Of a stretch of DNA of 12,504 nt, positions 1,260 to 10,091 are shown one piece after another (the first letter of the stretch is position 1; the number at the start of each line of letters is the position of its first letter). The DNA comes from an uncultured Phaeodactylibacter sp. (GTDB taxonomy: Bacteria; Bacteroidota; Bacteroidia; Chitinophagales; Saprospiraceae): NCBI GenBank assembly GCA_913062745.1, contig CAJXXJ010000040.1:1-12504 (forward strand), written 5' to 3'. The notes below the pieces were generated by a model. The model was not told where the DNA came from. It saw only the letters and a program-made list of their open reading frames with translations, and did not search any database. The position numbers and the translations under genes were made by a program.

Positions 1260-3890
1260 TTAAAACCTTATGTTGCACCGAGGCATAGCATCCTGAAGGC
1301 TTTTGATCTCCTCTTTAGGGATAGAGTTGTTGCTGATGTCTAGCCTCAATAAGTTCTCGAGTTGCCCGAAGCTATCGGGCAGCGTGGTCAATTGGTTGTT
1401 ATACAGATTAAGTTCCGTCAGCTTGTTGAGTTGGCTGAAGCTATCGGGCAGCGTTGTCAATTTATTACCTCCCAGGTAAAGCAACTGCAGCTTGTTGAGT
1501 TGTCCGAAGCTTTTGGGCAGCGCGGTCAATTTATTACCTCCCAGGTAAAGCAACTGCAGCTTGTTGAGTTGCTCGAAGCTTTCGGGCAGGGTGGTCAATT
1601 GATTACCTTCTAGGTGAAGCAGCTGCAGCTTGTTGAGTTGTCCGAAGCTTTCTGGCAGCGTTATCAATTCGTTGTTATACAGCTTAAGCTCCGTCAGCTT
1701 GCTGAGTTGGCCGAAGCTTTCGGGTAGCGTGGTCAATTGGTTGTTATACAGATTAAGCACCGTCAGCTTGTTGAGTTGCCCGAAGCTTTCGGGTAGCTTG
1801 GTCAATTGGTTGTTATACAGATTAAGTTCCGTCAGCTTGTTGAGTTGTCCGAAGCTTTCTGGCAACGTTATCAATTCGTTGTTATACAGCTTAAGCTCCG
1901 TTAGCTTGTTGAGTTGCCCGAAGCTTTCGGGCAGCGTGGTCAATTGGTTACCTTCTAGGTGAAGCAGCTGCAGCTTGTTGAGTTGCCCGAAGCTATCGGG
2001 CAGCGTGGTCAACCGGTTACTGCGGAGGCCAAGTCTCTGTAGGTTTTTGAATTGCCCGAAGTTATCGGGCAGGGTGGTCAATTGGTTGAATCGAAGATCA
2101 AGCGTCTCTAGGTTTTTGAGTTGCCCGAAGCTATCGGGCAGCGTGGTCAACTGGTTACTGCGGAGGCCAAGTTTCTGTAGATTGTTGAGTTGCCCGAAGC
2201 TTTCGGGCAGCGTGGTCAATTGGTTAAAACGAAGATCAAGCGTCTGTAGGTTTTTGAGTTTCCCGACGCTATCGGGCAGCTCATCAACTTGGTTGTTGGA
2301 AAGCCAAAGTTCCGTCAGCTTGTTGAGTTGCCCTAAACCATCGGGCAGGGTGGTCAATTGATTGCGGTCGAGGTAAAGGGCTGCGAGGTTAGATAGTTCT
2401 GTGATTGCTTCGGGGAATGTGTCGAATTTGTTATCACCAAGAATAAGTTCCGTCAGCTTGTTGAGTTGGCCGAAGCTATCAGGCAGGGTGGTCAATTGGT
2501 TGGAATGAAGATCAAGCGTTTGTAGGTTTTTGAGTTGCCCGAAGCTTTCGGGCAGCGTTGTCAATTCATTGCCGTCGATGTAAAGTTCCGTCAGCCTATT
2601 GAGTTGCCCGAAGCTATCAGGCAGCTCCTCAAATTGATTGTTGGAAAGCCAAAGTTCCGTCATCTTATTGAGTTGCCCGAAGCTATCAGGCAGCTTTTTC
2701 AATTGGTTGTTGGCAAGACTAAGTGCTGTTAGCTCCCTGAGTTGCCCTAAACTATCGGGCAGTGTGGTCAATTGGTTGCTAAAAAGATAAAGGTGTTCCA
2801 GATTGGATAGTTCTGTGATTGCTTCGGGTACTGTTTCGAATTGGTTCTCACCAAGATAAAGCTCTTTCAGCGAGGTAAGCGCCCCGATTTCTTTCGGCAG
2901 TGTATCTAACTCATTAAATGATATTGAAAAGACGATCAGCTTATTAAGTGCTCTGATTTCAGGGTCAAGCACTTTGATAAAGTTTTTGGTAAACCGAAGT
3001 ACAGAAAGATTGGTCAGCGTCCAGATTTCTTTCGGTATCTCTTTTAATTGATTCGACCGTAAATCGAGCGTGGTAAGGTTGGTAAGCTGTCCTATCTGTG
3101 ACGGGATTTTTCGCAGGCGATTTTCTTTGAGCAACAATACCTCTAACTCGCGGTGTTGGAAGACCTGATGAGGGATGGTGTCCAGCCCCTTCCTTCTCAG
3201 ATCCAGTGCAATCACGCCGGCTTTCAAGCTGTCGATACTTTCGGCAACCCGGTACTCCGTGCCGGTAGTGTCGATCAGGAACGTTTGGGAGTCTCGCTCC
3301 ACTCTGGCGAGTCCATCATCATCAAAAAACTCCGCCTCATCGTAGATAAATTCGATCTCAGTTTCCAGTTTTTTGTTGATGAAACCGTATTTCTGTTTGT
3401 TGCTGTCGAAGGATAAGCCAAAACGGCCTTTATAAAAATAAATCTTATCCAGCGCTGCCTGTACGAGTGCTGCCTGGTTTTTAGCCTCTTCCTCTGCATC
3501 CTCCGCTTTTTCCCTTTCCTGCTCTGCATCTTCCCTTGCCTGCTCCGCATCTTCCCTTGCCTTCTTCGCTGCTTTAAGGGCATTTTCCACCCTGGTTTTT
3601 TCCTTTTCCAACCTGGCTTTTGCCTCTTCCGCATCATCACGCTGTTTCTGTATGGCCCTGAACACCTCTTTGGTATACTGCTCAAGCTCGTCCTCCTTCT
3701 CCGGTGCCCAGGCCCGGGCGGCCTCAATGTGGAGCAGGGTGGAATCATACTTTCCCCCGGCAATAGTGGATTCAATATTTTTAACAATAGCCTCGTATTG
3801 TTCTTCCTGGGATAAAGGGGCCACTCCCTGTGCTAAGAGGGGACTACCGCCGAGGAGAAGGAGCAGAAAAAGAAGGGTAAGAGGTTTCAT
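1260..3890 (-). CDS. Exported coiled-coil / WG-like / leucine-rich-repeat protein, putative sensor of the STAND operon
   Basis: An 876-residue protein with no enzyme motif. In order: a signal peptide (residues 1-20, hydrophobic [10 protein letters not shown] then SPLLA before Gln21; no lipobox cysteine); a short helical segment (about 25-80, TPR-like [14 protein letters not shown]); a charged Glu/Lys/Ala coiled coil (about 80-147); a WG-like beta module (about 151-212, with [16 protein letters not shown] and a Gly-Leu-Ala-Arg-Val element); and 27 consecutive 23-residue leucine-rich repeats plus a partial 28th (224-855). The repeat consensus is LxxLxLxxNxLxxLPxxhGQL. It ends in an acidic/basic cap closing with PRCNIRF. 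LRR arrays of this kind bind proteins or other ligands on the concave face. It is the last gene of the operon, 23 bases after the NTPase stop, and supplies the repeat-type sensor that the NTPase lacks. Periplasmic or surface location follows from the signal peptide. The ligand is unknown. Confidence 0.9.
1263..3221 (-). repeat. Array of 69-bp coding repeats (28 LRR units)
   Basis: The LRR-coding region is a tandem array with a strict 69-bp period (23 codons) and no length variation across 27 full units. Similarity is highest at the C-terminal coding end (about 1330-2340). For example, 47 bases at 1456-1502 recur identically at 1525-1571, exactly one period away. Units nearer the N-terminus (about 2780-3221) have diverged most. 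Longer-period similarity is also visible: units 15-16 against 17-18 (two-unit period), and units 6-7 resemble units 12-13, including the shared variant [10 protein letters not shown]. This fits growth by unequal crossing-over with local homogenisation. Confidence 0.9.
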
Positions 3891-3913
3891 GGTACAGTTA
3901 CTTTTAGTGAGGC

Positions 3914-5647
3914 TCAGTTGGATTGAAGTTTAGTTTCAAGCCTCCTTTTTACGTCCTGGAACAGGGGGTCGTCTTCCTTTCCCCCCTGATACAGCGAGTC
4001 TGCTTCCTGAAAAAGCGTATCCGCTTGTAGGTAAAGTGCCCGTGCGGCATCCGGGTAAAGCATATCCAGGTGGGAAGCGCGGTTGAGAAATTGTTCCGCC
4101 TGTCGCAGGTTTTCGCTGGATTTGGCAGCATGCATTTTCCGCAGGCTTTGCTGAGCTTCCTGCTGTGAATACCAGGCCCAGCCCGAAGCTCCCAGAGCCA
4201 CCAGCAGCAGCCCGATGGCCATATAGGAAAAAACGACTGCCCGGCGGCGGCCCCGTTCTGCTTCCTGTTGTAAGCGCTGCGCTTCCCGGCGTTTTTCAGT
4301 TTCCTCGGCGGCTTTGGCCTCAGCAGCACGGCGCTGCTGTTCGTACTCCCGGCGCTCTTCTTCGGCGCGGCGTTGCTTCCTCGACTGTGCGATGGGCCTC
4401 ATCAGCGTATCGTGGCTGATCTCATAGTTGAAGCCTCCGGTGCTGTTGCGCTCCCTGCGCAGCAGGAAGGCATCCACCAGGCTGGAGAGCAGAGCTTCGT
4501 TTATCCCCTCCTCCCGGTAGCGGTCGATCAGGGCACCGCCGTCCACGCTCAGGCGGCGGTACTCATCGCTTTTTTCATTGACCAGCAGCAGGCCTTCCTC
4601 GATGACCAGCCGGGCAGCATCCTGTTGGCCGGCGGGCAGCAGGCTGAGGTTGCGCCGGTAGTACTGGTCATAAATATTGGAGATGTCGGGCAGCCCTTCT
4701 TCAGTAACAAGCACACGGCCGGATTCGTCGCGTTGTTGTATTTCACCACTGCGCACCTGGTATTCGATCTCCCGGCAGATCATCTGCAGCAGGAAGGACT
4801 CAATGCCTGCTTGTGTGGCAGTTTGGCTACTCACCAGGTTATTGAGTATAGCATCAACTGCCGCCGGGGTATAGCCAAAGGGAGCGGTCAGGAAGTTGAG
4901 CCCCCCGGTGTTGGGCAGTCCGGCGGGCTTAACAATCGCCATACGGGCCTGATCCGCTTGCAGAGACTTGAGCTCGTAGCGAATGCGCAGCACGGCAGGC
5001 AAAGCATCCTTAAGCTGGTCAAGCAGGCTCAGCCGGTCGGAACGTATAGAAAATACGGCTTTGACTTCCATCCGCTCCACGAGGTGGTCGTACTCATCGT
5101 CGGGCAGCTCCTCGGCGGCGTCCCGGATGTGCTGTGGAATAGCAACGTACAGCAGTTCGGCCAGCTGCTGCTTGAAAGCAGCCTGTAGCTCCGGTGGATA
5201 GGTAAACAGCTCCTCGAACTGGTCAAACACGAGCAGAAAACGGTGCTGACCGGCTGCCTGCCGCTGCTTGAAGGCTTTCCAGAGGCTGTCCTGTGGCGTG
5301 AGCGAGGAGAGGAAAGCCATACTTGGCGAAGGCGGAAGGGCTTCGGAGAGCTGCTGCCGTATATGGTCCACAGGGGTCAGCTGCCCACCGTCGGGGAGGT
5401 AAGCCCCGAAACGCACCTGTATGGGCAGAAAATGTTCGGGCTCGCCTTTTGGTGCCGCTTCAAACCTGGGCAAAATCCCTGCATTGAGCAGAGAACTCTT
5501 GCCGTAGCCGGATTTGCCAAAGAGCGTCACCATTTTTTCCAGCAGGATCAGCTCGTACAGCTGTTCCCGGTCCTGATCCCGCCCGAAGAAGATGTTTTGC
5601 TCCGAGCGCTCAAAAGGCTTTACGCCGGGGTATCGGTTCTGGCTCAT
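3914..5647 (-). CDS. nSTAND1-family NTPase with one transmembrane helix and no C-terminal sensor repeats
   Basis: A 577-residue signalling ATPase/GTPase of the STAND class, expected to switch between ADP-bound off and ATP-bound oligomeric on states. The N-terminus carries the nSTAND1 opening ([19 protein letters not shown], 6-24). Walker A is GKSGYGKS (44-51). Walker B with its acidic pair is [12 protein letters not shown] (137-148; Asp142, Glu145, Glu146). A sensor-1-like arginine lies in SIRSDRL (200-206). A winged-helix-like region follows, with YEISHDTL at 408-415. Residues about 422-470 form a highly charged coiled coil, and 471-492 are a single hydrophobic helix ([16 protein letters not shown]). 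A helical TPR-like tail of 85 residues would lie across the membrane. STAND proteins normally carry long TPR, WD40 or LRR arrays after the switch; here there are none, and the next gene encodes an exported LRR protein. Its start overlaps the stop of the SIR2/EAD gene. Confidence 0.9.
5644..5647 (-). promoter_or_regulatory. ATGA stop/start overlap linking SIR2-EAD11 and nSTAND1 genes
   Basis: The TGA stop of the SIR2/EAD gene (5646-5644) shares bases with the ATG start of the NTPase gene (5647-5645) in a four-base ATGA overlap. This arrangement usually means translational coupling and near-stoichiometric production of two proteins that act together. Confidence 0.9.
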
Positions 5648-6720
5648 TTTAGCGTATTCAGTAGGTCAAGAAAATCATGGACAATCTGGTTGCGGACAGG
5701 CTCCGACTCGCCGGGCAGGAACAGCCCCCTTGCTTCCTTGCTCTTCCAGTGCTGATGCCGCTCCCGCAGCGCGGTCAGGCGGGTTTCCTGTTCCGGAGTG
5801 AGGCGATACCGCTTCAGGCCTAGCAGTGCGTCCTGCAGCTTGCCCGAGGCTACCTGCCGCATCAGCTCTTCGGTAGGTACCGGGCCACTTGCTTCCGCAA
5901 AACTGAGGGGGCGCAGCAACCCTTCTTCCGAAAGGGTGTCGTGCAGGGCGTCAAAGAAGCTCTTTTCGTTAGGCAGGAACTGTATCTGAAATTGGTGCAC
6001 CAGGAAGTCCCGCGCATCTTCATTTTCAAGCTTTGGCCGCACGGCAAACTTGGGCCTCCCTTTGCGCTCGTAAGTCAGTAGTTGCAGCAGCAGTTGAGAG
6101 TACCATTTTTCAAAGTCAAACCCAAGGAACAGAAAGGATTCTGCCCGCCGCAACTGCATGCGGATTTTGTTGGGCAGGCCGTCCGGTAAGATAGCGCGCA
6201 ACAACTGGAATAAATCCTCGTAGTCGAGCACCAGAGACTCTTCCTCGCTCACACAGCCGGAGAGGTTGTAGATCAGTGGGCGATCGTTGCTCGGCTCGTC
6301 CACATCCTCGGCACCGCCGCCTGAGTAGCGAAAGTGCTTGAAGTCGTGCAGCAGCCCGAGCTCTTGTGCCACCTGGCTCAGGCCGGTATCGGGCGTCATG
6401 CTGACGATAAGGGGGATGGGCAACTCGAGTATTCTCTTGTAAAGAGCGGTGGGCACTTCCATTTTCCGGTACAGCCGTTTAAGGCGGCGGATGGCCCGGT
6501 TTTTGTGTGCGTCTTCTTTAAAGAGGAAAAGGCTGTCGTTCGGATAGTAGTAGGCGATATTATCCGCCTCTTGTTCGAGCAGCTGCTGATGGATGAAGCG
6601 CGTCTGTGACTGGCTATCTTTTCCGCCGATCTCCGGGCCAATCAGCAATACACATTTTTCTTCTTCTATATCGAGGAGCAAGTCTTCTATGACCTTTGCA
6701 CTTTCCAGGGGTTTAGACAT
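5644..6720 (-). CDS. Degenerate SIR2-like domain protein with C-terminal EAD11-like adaptor domain
   Basis: A 358-residue, probably cytosolic protein. Residues about 10-270 have the layout of a SIR2-like Rossmann fold: a first strand and loop KCVLLIGPEIGG (22-33), a second motif IVSMTPDTGL (105-114) where active enzymes have TTNYD or TQNID, LIYNLSG (149-155) where they have an HG motif, then SLVLDYEDLF (162-171) and FLFLGFDFEKW (196-206). The catalytic Asn and His of active sirtuins or SIR2 NADases are replaced, by Pro/Thr and Ser, so it may be enzymatically dead. Residues about 284-358 are a small helical domain (ASGKLQDALLGLK to VHDFLDLLNTL) that resembles effector-associated domain 11, a homotypic adaptor of bacterial conflict systems. 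Start choice: the frame is open back to 6813, but 6720 (MSKPLESAK) begins the conserved part and lies just behind a promoter-like element. First gene of the operon. Confidence 0.72.
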   Translation of the reverse strand: MSKPLESAKVIEDLLLDIEEEKCVLLIGPEIGGKDSQSQTRFIHQQLLEQEADNIAYYYPNDSLFLFKEDAHKNRAIRRLKRLYRKMEVPTALYKRILELPIPLIVSMTPDTGLSQVAQELGLLHDFKHFRYSGGGAEDVDEPSNDRPLIYNLSGCVSEEESLVLDYEDLFQLLRAILPDGLPNKIRMQLRRAESFLFLGFDFEKWYSQLLLQLLTYERKGRPKFAVRPKLENEDARDFLVHQFQIQFLPNEKSFFDALHDTLSEEGLLRPLSFAEASGPVPTEELMRQVASGKLQDALLGLKRYRLTPEQETRLTALRERHQHWKSKEARGLFLPGESEPVRNQIVHDFLDLLNTLK

Positions 6721-6741
6721 ATTTAGGTTCGGTGTATTAAG

Positions 6742-6749
6742 CAAAAATA
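6742..6749 (-). promoter_or_regulatory. Candidate Bacteroidota -7 promoter element for the SIR2-nSTAND1-LRR operon
   Basis: On the minus strand these bases read TATTTTTG, a full match to the Bacteroidota -7 consensus TAnnTTTG, in an AT-rich stretch. Transcription would begin about 15 bases before the ATG at 6720. No clear TTG -33 element is seen at the usual 19-20 base spacing, so the call is tentative. Confidence 0.35.
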
Positions 6750-6874
6750 ACAAACAGCGAAGGAAAAATGAACTGTATTCTGCTTTTGTGAAGATATAAT
6801 GTATGTTGACCACCAGCAGGAAAGCACTTATCGGCGGGGTTGGTGCTCATTGGCGATGGCGTTGCCTAACCCTC

Positions 6875-6890
6875 TGTTTGTTGCCAAACA
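6875..6890. repeat. Short perfect inverted repeat, possible operator
   Basis: TGTTTG and CAAACA form a 6-bp perfect inverted repeat around a 4-base spacer (TTGC). It lies about 150 bases upstream of the operon start and 48 bases before the possible small ORF. It could be an operator or a small hairpin; the length is compatible with chance. Confidence 0.25.
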
Positions 6891-6937
6891 ACTTCGTCAT
6901 CGGTATTATTACTATAGCTCCGAACCACACCCCGTCC

Positions 6938-7045
6938 ATGCAATACATCTCCGTCAGCCTGTACCGCAAAATGATCAACCACGCGCTGAGCGAGGGCATC
7001 GGCCGTAGTGCCTTTGACGATCAGCCGGTGCCGCAGTCGGTGTAG
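6938..7045 (+). CDS. Possible small ORF (35 residues), unrecognised
   Basis: A short open frame from ATG 6938 to TAG 7043-7045, encoding a peptide that begins MQYISVSLYRKM and ends DQPVPQSV. The product is not recognised and has no signal peptide or transmembrane segment. The main reason to list it is position: a strong plus-strand hairpin terminator begins 13 bases past the stop and belongs to neither large neighbour. The frame is open further upstream, to an ATG at 6803, but that part is rich in Trp/Arg/Cys and looks non-coding. It could be a real small protein, the 3' remnant of a larger lost gene, or chance, with the terminator ending a non-coding transcript. Confidence 0.3.
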   Translation: MQYISVSLYRKMINHALSEGIGRSAFDDQPVPQSV

Positions 7046-7057
7046 AATGAACCGCAA

Positions 7058-7094
7058 GCAAGGCTGAAGCCGGTATTCAGCCTTGCACTATTTT
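7058..7094 (+). terminator. Hairpin terminator, plus strand
   Basis: A perfect 11-bp stem (GCAAGGCTGAA, 7058-7068; TTCAGCCTTGC, 7076-7086) encloses a 7-base loop and is followed by ACTATTTT, a modest U-rich tail. Read on the minus strand there is no U run, so it works in the plus direction. It ends whatever is transcribed from the 6900-7045 region and insulates the caspase gene, which starts 199 bases later. Confidence 0.7.
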
Positions 7095-7292
7095 CCTATG
7101 GGCCACTGAATGGTCTATGTGCAGAGCCCGGAAGAGCGCAGCCGTATTTTGCGGAAACGCCAAAAGGACAGGCATATGTTAGCGGGGAGGGAGTTTTTCC
7201 AGAGTACATGCCCTACATTATACCGCCCTCAATATCTTCTGGCCGCAGATCCGATTTTTTCCGGTATATTGGAGCAAAGCTCTGGTACGCTT

Positions 7293-10091
7293 ATGAAAAA
7301 ACGAACCCTCCTTATGGCCTTGCTGCTTCCCCTGCTGTGTTTGGCACAAAAGCCGGAGCTGGTGGTGCCGCTGGGGCATAGCGGCCGGAATGTGACACAC
7401 AGCTACTCACCGGACGGGCAGTACATTGCAACTTTTTTATTCGGAGACCCTGCCGTGAAAATCTGGAGCCGGGAGGGGAAAGAACTGGCCGCTTTGCAGA
7501 GCGGAGAACGGTTTATTGCATCCGCCCGCTTTACCGATGACGGGCTTATGGTTGTCGAGCTGGGATACCGGGAAAGGGTAGAGGGGGATCTTATGGAGTA
7601 CATTTCCTTTCCGTACATCACCGTTTGGCGGCTGGACGGGACAATAGCTGCCAGGCTGGAGGGAAAGCCGAGCGCTACACTGGAGGAAGTTAAGTCAGTC
7701 TATCTGGAAAAAGAGGGCCGCACGCTTCGGCTGCCCGAAGCCCGGCAGGAGCCACCGCTACCCGCCGGTTTTCCCGTAAGGGGCTACGCCCGCAGCATGT
7801 CCGCAGCATTTTTCGGTGCCGATGGCCAGTCTGTAATTGCTAATGGAGCCTGGGACTTGGAGCGGAACCGGATACAGCCTGCAGAGGAGGAACGGCCGTT
7901 CTTCAGCGGCTTCACCGGAGACTTGCTGTGGTCTCCCGGCCGGGAATATATTTTTGGCACCTCCGCCGATGAGCCGGTCCCTGCCCTCTACCCGCAGACA
8001 GAAGCGGCCGAAGCAGTGGTGCAGGCAGTCATCCCAAACGGTTTTGCAGGGCACACTGCCCCCGTCACCGCAGCGGCCTTCTCCCCCGATGGGCAGTACA
8101 TCCTCACCGGCAGCAATGACCAAACGGCCCGCCTCTGGAATCTCAAAGGCGAAGAGCTTCAGGCCTTTCCCGGACATCCCGGCCCGGTATGGTCCGTATG
8201 TTTCCATCCTGAGCGCCCGCTGGTACTGACGGGCACCGAAAAGATGGCAAAAATCTGGCGGAGAGGAGCGCAGGAAGAGCTGGCCTCCCTGATACAGATT
8301 GGGGCCGCTGACTGGGTGGTTATTGCGCCCTCCGGCCTGTTCGATGCCTCGCCGGGCGCGATGCGCTTGCTGCACTACAGCGTCTTTTACGAAGCGGCTT
8401 CGGAATACCTGGCCATTGATGTGGAGCAGCTCAAGTCCCGATACTACGAGCCTGGCCTGCTGCAAAAATTGCTGGGCTACTCCGACGAGCGTATCCGGCC
8501 AGTGGAGGGCTTTGAGGAGGTACGGCTGTACCCAAAGGTTGCCGCAGAGATACAGCAGGATACGCTAATCATCCGGCTGCAGGCGCGCAACGGCGGCATC
8601 GGTAAAGTCAGCATCTTCATTAACGGCAAGGAGGTAGCAGAAGAGGCCAACCCGCTGCCCCGGGTGCCTAACCCGCAGCGTGACAGCCTGATCCGTTTCC
8701 CCTTGTCCGGGCAGCGGCAGTACCTGCTGCGCCATCCGGACAGCACCAATACCATCAGCATACGCGCCTACAACGAAGCGGGCTGGCTGAAGAGCCCGGC
8801 GCACCACCTGGAGTATCAGCTGAGCCGGGCCAGGCGCAGCAATGCGGAAGGCAGGAGCAGCGCCTGGGAAGGAAAGCTCAACCCTAAATTGTACGCTATC
8901 TGCATCGGCACCTCCGACTACACCGGCGAGCAGCTCGACCTGCAGTACGCCGATCAGGATGCTACCATGATGGCCCGGGCACTGCAATCCGTAGGCACCG
9001 CTCTGTTTACCAACGGCGACAGCCTGGAAGTACACTGCCTGTCGACGGCAGCGGCAGACTCCACGGGGCTGGAGGGTACGCCCGTGCAGTGGCAGTTTGC
9101 GGATAAAAAGAATATTGAGGCGGCCTTCAGAGCAGTCCGGCAGCGCGCCAAGGCAGAGGATGTGCTCCTCGTTTACCTCTCCGGCCACGGGCTGGCCCGC
9201 TCCGGCAGAGATCAGACGCAGTTCTACTACCTCACGCAGGGTGTGGCCCGGGAAGAAGACCTGAACGACCCGGCTACGCTCGCCGCGTACACCCTTTCCA
9301 GCGAAGAGCTGACCCGGTGGATCAATGATGTCCCCGCGCTCAAGCAGGTGCTTATTGTGGATGCCTGCAATTCCGGGCAGGTGGTGGAAGACCTCACGGC
9401 AGGAGCCAAGACGCTCAACTCCAGCCAAATCCGGGCTTTTGACCGTATGAAAGACCGCACCGGTATGTTCGTGCTTTCCGGCAGCGCCTCCGATAAGGTG
9501 AGTTACGAGGCGAGCGAATACGGGCAGGGCTTGCTGACTTACGCCCTGCTGCAGGGGATGCTGGGCCTGGCAACGCGTAAGGATAGGCAGGGGCAGGATG
9601 TGGTAGATGTGATGGAGCTTTTTCAGTACGCACGGGATGAAGTACCCAACCTGGCACGCGGCATAGGTATTCAGACTCCTACGCTGGGCTTTCCGGCGGG
9701 GGCAGCGAGCTTCGATATCGGCATTCTCGATGAAGAAGCCAAACGGCGCATCTCGATCGGGAACAAAAAGCCGGTATTTACGCGGAGTGTATTTTTGAAT
9801 AAGGAAACCTTTCTGGACGGTCTGCAGCTGGCGGAGGGCCTGGAGACCGCTTTCCGCAAGGAAACCAAACGGGGCAGCAACGCCCGCCTGATCTACGTTG
9901 ACGTCCACGACTATCCGGGGGCTTATTCGGTGAGCGGGCTGTATGAACAGACAGCGGAGGGCATAAAACTGGAAGCCAAACTATTCCTGGATAAAGCCAA
10001 CCCTGTACGCCTGCAGATTGCGCCGCAGGCAGATCCCGAGCGGTTGATACGGGCACTGATGCGCGCGGTAAGAGAGGCGCTGCAGGAATAG
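7293..10091 (+). CDS. Exported WD40 / Ig-like / caspase-family (peptidase C14) protein
   Basis: A 932-residue predicted cysteine protease of the caspase/metacaspase class. In order: a signal peptide (1-19, KKRTLLMALLLPLLCLAQ); a partial WD40 propeller with blades near 28-58 and 68-113, a degenerate middle, then GHTAPVTAAAFSPDGQY (253-269) and a last blade ending at KIWRR (320-324); the linker WVVIAPSGLFDASPGAMRLL (341-360), usual in Bacteroidota WD40-caspase proteins; an Ig-like segment (about 408-515); and a C14 domain from about 532 (KLYAICIGTSDY). The catalytic dyad is intact: His632 in YLSGHGL and Cys692 in IVDACNSG. The last ~120 residues form an unassigned domain. The frame is open back to 7110, but MKKR at 7293 gives a clean signal peptide and is preferred. 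It is divergent from the STAND operon and tail-to-tail with ldh, 5 bases apart. The substrate is unknown; caspases of this class usually cut after basic residues. Confidence 0.9.
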   Translation: MKKRTLLMALLLPLLCLAQKPELVVPLGHSGRNVTHSYSPDGQYIATFLFGDPAVKIWSREGKELAALQSGERFIASARFTDDGLMVVELGYRERVEGDLMEYISFPYITVWRLDGTIAARLEGKPSATLEEVKSVYLEKEGRTLRLPEARQEPPLPAGFPVRGYARSMSAAFFGADGQSVIANGAWDLERNRIQPAEEERPFFSGFTGDLLWSPGREYIFGTSADEPVPALYPQTEAAEAVVQAVIPNGFAGHTAPVTAAAFSPDGQYILTGSNDQTARLWNLKGEELQAFPGHPGPVWSVCFHPERPLVLTGTEKMAKIWRRGAQEELASLIQIGAADWVVIAPSGLFDASPGAMRLLHYSVFYEAASEYLAIDVEQLKSRYYEPGLLQKLLGYSDERIRPVEGFEEVRLYPKVAAEIQQDTLIIRLQARNGGIGKVSIFINGKEVAEEANPLPRVPNPQRDSLIRFPLSGQRQYLLRHPDSTNTISIRAYNEAGWLKSPAHHLEYQLSRARRSNAEGRSSAWEGKLNPKLYAICIGTSDYTGEQLDLQYADQDATMMARALQSVGTALFTNGDSLEVHCLSTAAADSTGLEGTPVQWQFADKKNIEAAFRAVRQRAKAEDVLLVYLSGHGLARSGRDQTQFYYLTQGVAREEDLNDPATLAAYTLSSEELTRWINDVPALKQVLIVDACNSGQVVEDLTAGAKTLNSSQIRAFDRMKDRTGMFVLSGSASDKVSYEASEYGQGLLTYALLQGMLGLATRKDRQGQDVVDVMELFQYARDEVPNLARGIGIQTPTLGFPAGAASFDIGILDEEAKRRISIGNKKPVFTRSVFLNKETFLDGLQLAEGLETAFRKETKRGSNARLIYVDVHDYPGAYSVSGLYEQTAEGIKLEAKLFLDKANPVRLQIAPQADPERLIRALMRAVREALQE

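Follow-up and report, generated by a model that had tools for sequence, protein, structure and literature searches.

The 12,504-nucleotide stretch studied here (the window) is the whole of contig CAJXXJ010000040.1 (C40) in the 4.7-Mb, 874-contig draft genome of an uncultured Phaeodactylibacter sp., GCA_913062745.1. We read three of its minus-strand genes as a modular transmembrane receptor that would work from the outside in: a membrane-spanning STAND NTPase (nSTAND1-TM), an exported leucine-rich repeat (LRR) protein as its sensor, and a SIR2-fold protein that has lost catalytic residues (pSIR2, a pseudo-sirtuin) as its adaptor. We give this reading a probability of about 0.62, its weakest part being that the receptor directs killing against phage or competitors.

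The pSIR2–nSTAND1 gene pair

The initial annotation had described the three genes as tightly packed, with a 4-base overlap and then a 23-base gap (between nSTAND1-TM and the LRR gene), and the list of open reading frames (ORFs) bears this out. The packing goes beyond chance because the pSIR2–nSTAND1 pair recurs in 56/61 and 76/80 other loci, two sets that overlap. The first set came from scanning genome contigs with the pSIR2 alignment, and its hosts are, we assume, Bacteroidota. All 56 nSTAND1 genes are on the same strand as pSIR2, with the order reversed in locus L131 and a gap of about 0.9 kb in L116 and L117; of the remaining five loci, L103, L110, L134 and L148 run out of contig within about 310 bases, and no gene could be recognised in L154.

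The second set reversed the test, starting from 80 nSTAND1 loci that are part of the listed family and phylum matches, picked down the ranking so as to include weak ones. A profile finds pSIR2 upstream in 76, and Pfam adds L307 to make 77; the upstream genes of L294 and L295 are different ones, and L263 has no same-strand upstream gene of at least 140 residues. Because linked members went into building the nSTAND1 profile, it could miss divergent members that are not linked. L307 is itself a very divergent member, in which a protein with SIR2_2 and TIR (7746-9164), missed by the profile, lies 9 bases upstream of nSTAND1 (5106-7736). Searched against 59 relatives, the window's nSTAND1 protein gave any match at E 1e-3 in 22 of them. 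Leaving the window's own aside, 12 matches reach E 1.5e-37 or better, and a separate search with the SIR2-like protein places its gene immediately upstream of each. Eighteen loci with other nSTAND1 proteins served as a control: they had no pSIR2, with only EAD11 pieces in L017 and L031.

After removal of near-duplicates (22 of 140 loci, leaving 118), pSIR2 and nSTAND1 are separate ORFs in the window and in the 113 non-redundant loci where pSIR2 precedes nSTAND1. The spacing of these 113 pairs is operon-like: 45 share the window's 4-base overlap, and 101 lie within 50 bases. The annotation had proposed conserved co-occurrence of the first three genes as a check; this proved strong for the first two, and the third recurs as a sensor that is either fused or separate.

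SIR2_2 matches pSIR2 at 39.4 bits (Pfam cut-off 24.5). Structure searches, which do not bear on its EAD11 part, place it in the fold of ThsA, DSR2, KomC and Avs5, with KomC, ThsA and DSR2 as the closest solved structures and the Avs5 structures 9jap and 9nc9 among the matches. The pSIR2 profile additionally matches ThsA and KomC; phmmer with pSIR2 against the PDB matched no SIR2 entry, so a profile search was needed.

The column of the catalytic His (HG motif) in the pSIR2 alignment is anchored by ThsA and by KomC H146 and KomC mutants, and it holds F, L, S, V, C, I or M in 64/64 proteins and H or N in 0/64. The catalytic Asn is kept in 12/64 and replaced in 52/64, and the GAGxS loop is GPE or similar in most. 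Because the His is gone throughout and the C-terminus is EAD11, TIR or CHAT, pSIR2 is probably a dead-enzyme adaptor rather than an effector. The annotation had called it a SIR2-like adaptor/effector: the SIR2-like domain stands, and the NADase effector role probably does not, since the catalytic positions are replaced. A pSIR2 that works as an NADase effector like Avs5, ThsA and DSR2, which would make the system a split, membrane-bound Avs5, is thus improbable. A C-terminal TIR or CHAT would itself supply an enzyme, and the part of the Avs5 study available to us reports that Ala or Gln at the His position abolished defence (PMC12931631).

The partner of pSIR2 is a STAND protein in sequence and in predicted structure. 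It matches nSTAND1 (PF20703) at 114.7 bits (cut-off 27.1), its P-loop KSGxGKSS and Walker B FDQFEE are invariant in 12/12 relatives, and its AAA core is followed by a winged helix. The model (pLDDT 90.6) matches archaeal STAND-like ATPases, ORC/Cdc6, NB-ARC and NLRP structures, in searches that do not bear on the coiled coil or tail. Hydropathy places a single transmembrane segment (TM) after the coiled coil, and the Arg-rich stretch seen by eye ahead of it (positive inside) predicts an N-in/C-out orientation.

The exported sensor and its proposed docking module

The LRR protein matches LRR_8 at 327.1 bits (cut-off 27) and the WG repeat at 30.9 (25.6), and a simple hydropathy measure rates its start as signal-peptide-like. 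Its repeat array has a 69-base unit in about 20.8 copies with 74% match. NCBIfam matches to pathogen effector names (one over its cut-off) were taken as LRR similarity only. Residues 20-235 share homology with the stretch that surrounds and follows the TM in relatives whose sensor is fused to the NTPase: 37% identity over 159 residues in L045 (5e-22), with further matches to L136, also fused (1e-12), and to L127 (1e-10), which has no exported neighbour and lies at a contig end. Given this homology, the best reading of the exported protein is as the outer half of a transmembrane STAND protein that has become detached.

Sorted by hydropathy, the 118 non-redundant loci comprise 47 split and 35 fused ones, 21 whose tail is short and which lack an exported neighbour, 12 in which no TM was recognised (several of them truncated, or with it in a second gene) and 3 that are cut. 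Removing by hand L118, L294 and L290, where the neighbour is not a sensor, took the split set from 47 to 44. The split topology that the initial annotation had picked out (one cytosolic, one membrane-spanning and, counting the caspase, two exported proteins) is therefore borne out for the three-gene part and recurs, with a separate exported sensor in 44 loci versus a sensor fused behind the TM in 35. In 38 of the 44, the sensor gene starts within 50 bases of the nSTAND1 stop.

Sensors of both forms are of several kinds. With sensors cut at 650 residues, Pfam finds WD40 in 20/44 separate sensors (18/44 by motif counts), and WD40 and FGE-sulfatase in 9/35 fused tails each; loose motif counts suggest LRR in 9 separate sensors and 7 fused ones. 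A quick tree built from 79 NTPase domains requires at least 18 changes between split and fused (mean 26.4 and minimum 22 after shuffling) and, among rows with a sensor kind, at least 19 changes of kind (mean 23.7 and minimum 20 after shuffling). Since these changes are fewer than after shuffling, both traits are exchanged often but not freely. Four fused TIR-type members (L140, L141, L145 and L146), which are marine Flavobacteriia-like, have other outside tails, with PKD-like repeats seen by eye in L141.

How would a detached sensor find its receptor? We trained one profile (the proposed plug) on 16 exported sensors of the WD40 type, using residues about 21-115 and leaving out L047 and L274. 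It finds 26/28 held-out exported sensors (9 LRR, 3 FGE, 2 WD40 and 12/14 unassigned), including the window's at 4.7e-11, and 0/35 fused tails; the two misses, L237 and L249, are perhaps not sensors. It also matches 22/1055 background proteins, 20 of which count as further sensors because they have a signal-peptide-like start and the same module, and come from the same loci; of the other two, one likewise has a signal-peptide-like start and the module, and the other has a longer start. A second profile (the socket) was built from the nSTAND1 tails of 14 loci, with L047, L274, L107 and L287 left out of training. It finds 19/30 held-out split tails (the window's at 3.9e-5) versus 1/35 fused, and its background matches (2/979 protein ends) are two nSTAND1 proteins of the test set, those of L287 and L273, that had entered the background. 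Because the two modules show this reciprocal pattern, we infer directly that the sensor's N-terminal module and the nSTAND1 tail are a candidate docking pair.

One receptor may also accept several sensors: 10/47 split-flagged loci have two to four same-strand proteins with the plug module. In L098, L130, L253, L263, L275 and L285, at least two exported plug-module proteins lie behind one nSTAND1-TM gene.

The effector slot and the caspase neighbour

What follows the SIR2 part of pSIR2 is exchangeable. Local profiles trained on members assign EAD11 to 75/113 C-termini and TIR to 13/113, with neither in 25/113. TIR_2 exceeds its Pfam cut-off in 8/10 pSIR2 proteins scanned. A Pfam scan of 10 of the 25 unassigned C-termini put TIR_2 over its cut-off in 3 and under it in 4, CHAT over its cut-off in L302, and EAD11 below threshold in L254. 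C-x-x-E, the place of the catalytic Glu in NADase TIRs, is present in 8/9 TIR tails inspected. TIR state changes twice on the NTPase tree when the divergent TIR-like tails are not counted as TIR. As the slot bears a toxin-type domain (TIR or CHAT) in some relatives, the adaptor domain EAD11 would occupy an effector slot in the window.

EAD11 scores 22.5 bits on the window's pSIR2 against a Pfam cut-off of 26, and 25.8 in a genome-wide scan, or 26 counting its neighbours in the frame. It is carried by pSIR2, and nSTAND1 begins directly with the NTPase. Among the 59 relatives, 24 have EAD11, at up to 32 places per genome; the window's own genome has 9 such places including the window's, one in a protein with TIR and one in a protein with a kinase. 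The same EAD therefore occurs on a core component, where it only reaches its cut-off, and on stand-alone effectors of one genome. According to the parts of two EAD studies that we draw on, EADs recruit effectors through homotypic contacts (PMC7159879, PMC8195603).

Several loci hold candidate partners or variants of this slot. In the window's own genome (contig C123), an EAD11-TIR-EAD11 protein (L179:658-1743) beside a cyclase-like gene is a candidate in-trans partner of the window's pSIR2-EAD11. An EAD11-CHAT gene (L045:11383-12276) lies directly upstream of a pSIR2-EAD11 / nSTAND1-TM-LRR operon, and L126 has an EAD11-caspase gene downstream of its operon. In L147 and L150-L153, a class III nucleotide cyclase is fused ahead of pSIR2 (over the Pfam cut-off in L150 and L153, the two scanned), and L150 has no C-terminal family by Pfam. 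In L150-L153, nSTAND1 is divided into an NTPase gene and a second gene bearing the TM; L147 is cut.

Divergent from the three genes is a WD40-caspase gene (WD40 82.2 bits, cut-off 27; Peptidase_C14 60.5, cut-off 21.4), which the initial annotation had counted as a fourth member of the system. Neighbourhoods and congeners do not support this. Caspase-like genes occur in only 4/61 and 4/80 neighbourhoods (five distinct loci, three contigs being common to both sets), and none of the five repeats the window's arrangement, in which the caspase is upstream of pSIR2 and points away from it. Congener neighbourhoods of the lactate dehydrogenase (LDH) gene have no caspase and no nSTAND1; the closest homologues of the caspase are on different contigs, both contigs being under 5 kb in congener G003, where the genes may still be linked. 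Pfam finds no EAD11 on the window's caspase. A 97-base remnant of an AraC-like regulator gene, intact in a congener (L183:3800-4789), sits between the three-gene module and the caspase, so there has been a rearrangement between them. The caspase is therefore ruled out as a conserved member and is probably a mere neighbour. That all four genes form one system with the caspase as exported executioner is very improbable; what speaks for it is the divergent neighbour itself, with its caspase motifs and a start that looks signal-peptide-like by eye, together with the EAD11-caspase of L126 and the caspase-like genes directly upstream of pSIR2, on the same strand, in L133 (1025-2092) and L135 (7946-8974), which are possible effectors inside those operons.

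The window's flanks carry alcohol dehydrogenase, LDH and Reg_prop genes by Pfam scan, and Rfam and tRNA scans of the window gave no match. Feature coordinates are collected in Table 1.

Table 1. Features of the window and their positions
Feature	Position	Strand	Remarks
Exported LRR sensor	1260-3890	-	signal-peptide-like start, N-terminal module (proposed plug), a coiled coil and a WG repeat; 69-base LRR-coding unit in about 21 copies
nSTAND1-TM	3914-5647	-	NTPase, winged helix, coiled coil, one TM (residues 470-488), 89-residue extracytoplasmic tail (proposed socket)
pSIR2 stop / nSTAND1 start overlap	5644-5647	-	4 bases (spacing -4)
pSIR2-EAD11	5644-6720	-	first ATG at 6720; mechanical ORF from 6813; SIR2-fold residues 1-268, EAD11 about 283-358; predicted cytosolic
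AraC-like regulator remnant	6937-7033	+	92% identity to start of the intact congener gene; AraC-like name by eye
Exported WD40-caspase	7293-10091	+	likely gene; ORF 7110-10091; signal-peptide-like Met at 7293; SGHG and DACNSG motifs read by eye

Proposed mechanism and relation to known systems

In the mechanism we propose, a secreted protein with repeats, of the LRR kind in the window and WD40, FGE/lectin-like, WG or TPR in other loci, would dock through its shared N-terminal module onto the extracytoplasmic tail of the inner-membrane nSTAND1 NTPase. Ligand bound outside the membrane would then drive the NTPase on the cytosolic side into an oligomer, which would engage the co-transcribed pseudo-sirtuin. 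With NAD hydrolysis presumably lost and the SIR2 fold kept (relatives form filaments), pSIR2 may serve to cluster its own C-terminal domain. That domain would be TIR or CHAT directly in some relatives; here it would be EAD11, recruiting EAD11-bearing effectors encoded elsewhere. Candidate recruits are the EAD11-TIR-EAD11 and EAD11-kinase proteins of the window's own genome, and, in relatives, EAD11-CHAT or EAD11-caspase proteins encoded next to the operon. Regulated cell death or growth arrest would be the likely result of meeting phage, a competitor or an envelope insult. Of this scheme, the sequences show the order of the genes, the fold, the missing catalytic residues, the homology of split and fused forms, the common docking modules and the exchange of C-terminal domains; that the parts form a complex, which way the signal runs, in-trans recruitment, killing and the ligand are proposed. 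At about even odds, the system is a bacterial outside-in NLR, with a membrane-spanning STAND, plug-in secreted sensors (one to four candidates per locus) and a pseudo-sirtuin that is purely an oligomerising adaptor with an effector slot for EAD11, TIR or CHAT.

Several results weigh against the receptor reading. The plug profile has no match in 6/47 split-flagged loci (3 of the 47 later dropped as wrongly flagged), and the socket profile misses 11/30 held-out split tails. Several, but not all, of the short-tailed loci without an exported neighbour (21/118) are contig ends or missed signal peptides. Sensor labels are simple motif counts, 23/76 inner branches of the NTPase tree are weak, and the window's EAD11 is at or under its Pfam cut-off. 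Avs5 stays active with an altered HG motif (NG), as far as the available part of that study goes (PMC12931631), so the loss of activity in pSIR2 is a prediction. PADLOC gave no system model, only domain-level matches (chat and ThsA for L302, TIR for L118, a caspase model for the caspase). No defence island was seen by eye in the window and 12 relatives' neighbourhoods, where housekeeping genes were noted, and no systematic test was made.

The last point also favours a rival, that the same transmembrane receptor serves envelope stress, kin recognition or developmental signalling and not conflict with phage or competitors. The nucleotide cyclase ahead of pSIR2 in variants suits signalling, and among viral contigs 60 stretches matched a pattern and none was confirmed as a relative. 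We consider this use rather unlikely, since TIR and CHAT in the C-terminal slot, and CHAT and caspase among EAD11 partners, are typical of conflict and cell-death systems, and sensors are exchanged frequently. Presence is also patchy, which is an accessory-system pattern: the nSTAND1 profile (A2) matches 84/398 genomes of a family sample at E 1e-40 and 8/395 of a phylum sample at E 1e-30 (own genome included), and 0/5 of the congeners listed have the system. Judged from sequence, a role of the receptor in phage defence is plausible.

A large protein collection holds at least 107 pSIR2 relatives at E 1e-10 among 7999 scored candidates. The one match among plasmid records is a complete operon in a cultured strain (L309:732-7709; NC_015512.1, plasmid pHALHY02 of Haliscomenobacter hydrossis DSM 1100), annotated as a SIR2 family protein, a hypothetical protein and two WD40 proteins, with 46% identity over 72% of the window's nSTAND1. 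Its genes are HALHY_RS33380 for pSIR2, RS33385 for nSTAND1-TM, and RS35615 and RS35620 for the WD40 proteins. The system is therefore directly testable in that strain.

EAD-linked STAND conflict systems are already known. In the parts of their description that we draw on, a core switch is linked to exchangeable effectors via small EAD domains, and the NTPases named, which have lectin-like FGS tails and an EAD or an effector as head, include nSTAND1 (Kaur et al. 2020, PMC7159879; 2021, PMC8195603). The window's system shares with them the exchangeable effectors and the many EAD copies per genome. It differs in that a pseudo-sirtuin carries the EAD in place of the STAND, which here is membrane-spanning, and in having an extracytoplasmic sensor that is often secreted as a protein of its own; the portions of those papers covered, supplements aside, hold no description combining EAD-pseudo-sirtuin, membrane-spanning STAND and secreted sensor.

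Avs5 (AVAST type 5) likewise couples a SIR2-fold domain, of the same fold, to a STAND NTPase, but, from what we have of its study, it is a single chain whose SIR2 NADase is active and responds to a phage protein in the cytoplasm (PMC12931631). Here there are two or three chains, SIR2 and STAND being encoded by separate genes, and the catalytic residues are lost, a TM is present and the sensor is outside. Unlike the NADases KomC, ThsA and DSR2, pSIR2 lacks the His and mostly the Asn, and has EAD11, TIR or CHAT behind its SIR2 part. A STAND protein with a predicted periplasmic ligand-binding part is described, in the sections available, as the second target of diversity-generating retroelement (DGR) 3 in Thiohalocapsa (PMC10907252). 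The Thiohalocapsa targets are DGR-diversified, with no pseudo-sirtuin and no separate docking sensor described there, whereas both are present here.

In the open-licence literature, supplements aside, we found no description of a membrane-crossing split combined with a docking module and a pseudo-sirtuin hub. To our knowledge, characterised bacterial STAND immune proteins sense inside the cell. If our reading is true, the natural series of split and fused receptors would show how receptor modules are rebuilt, and it would offer a testable docking interface and a candidate scaffold role for pseudo-sirtuins. An outside-in NLR would then be a receptor class between Toll-like receptors, with their outside sensor and TIR inside, and NLRs, with their STAND switch.
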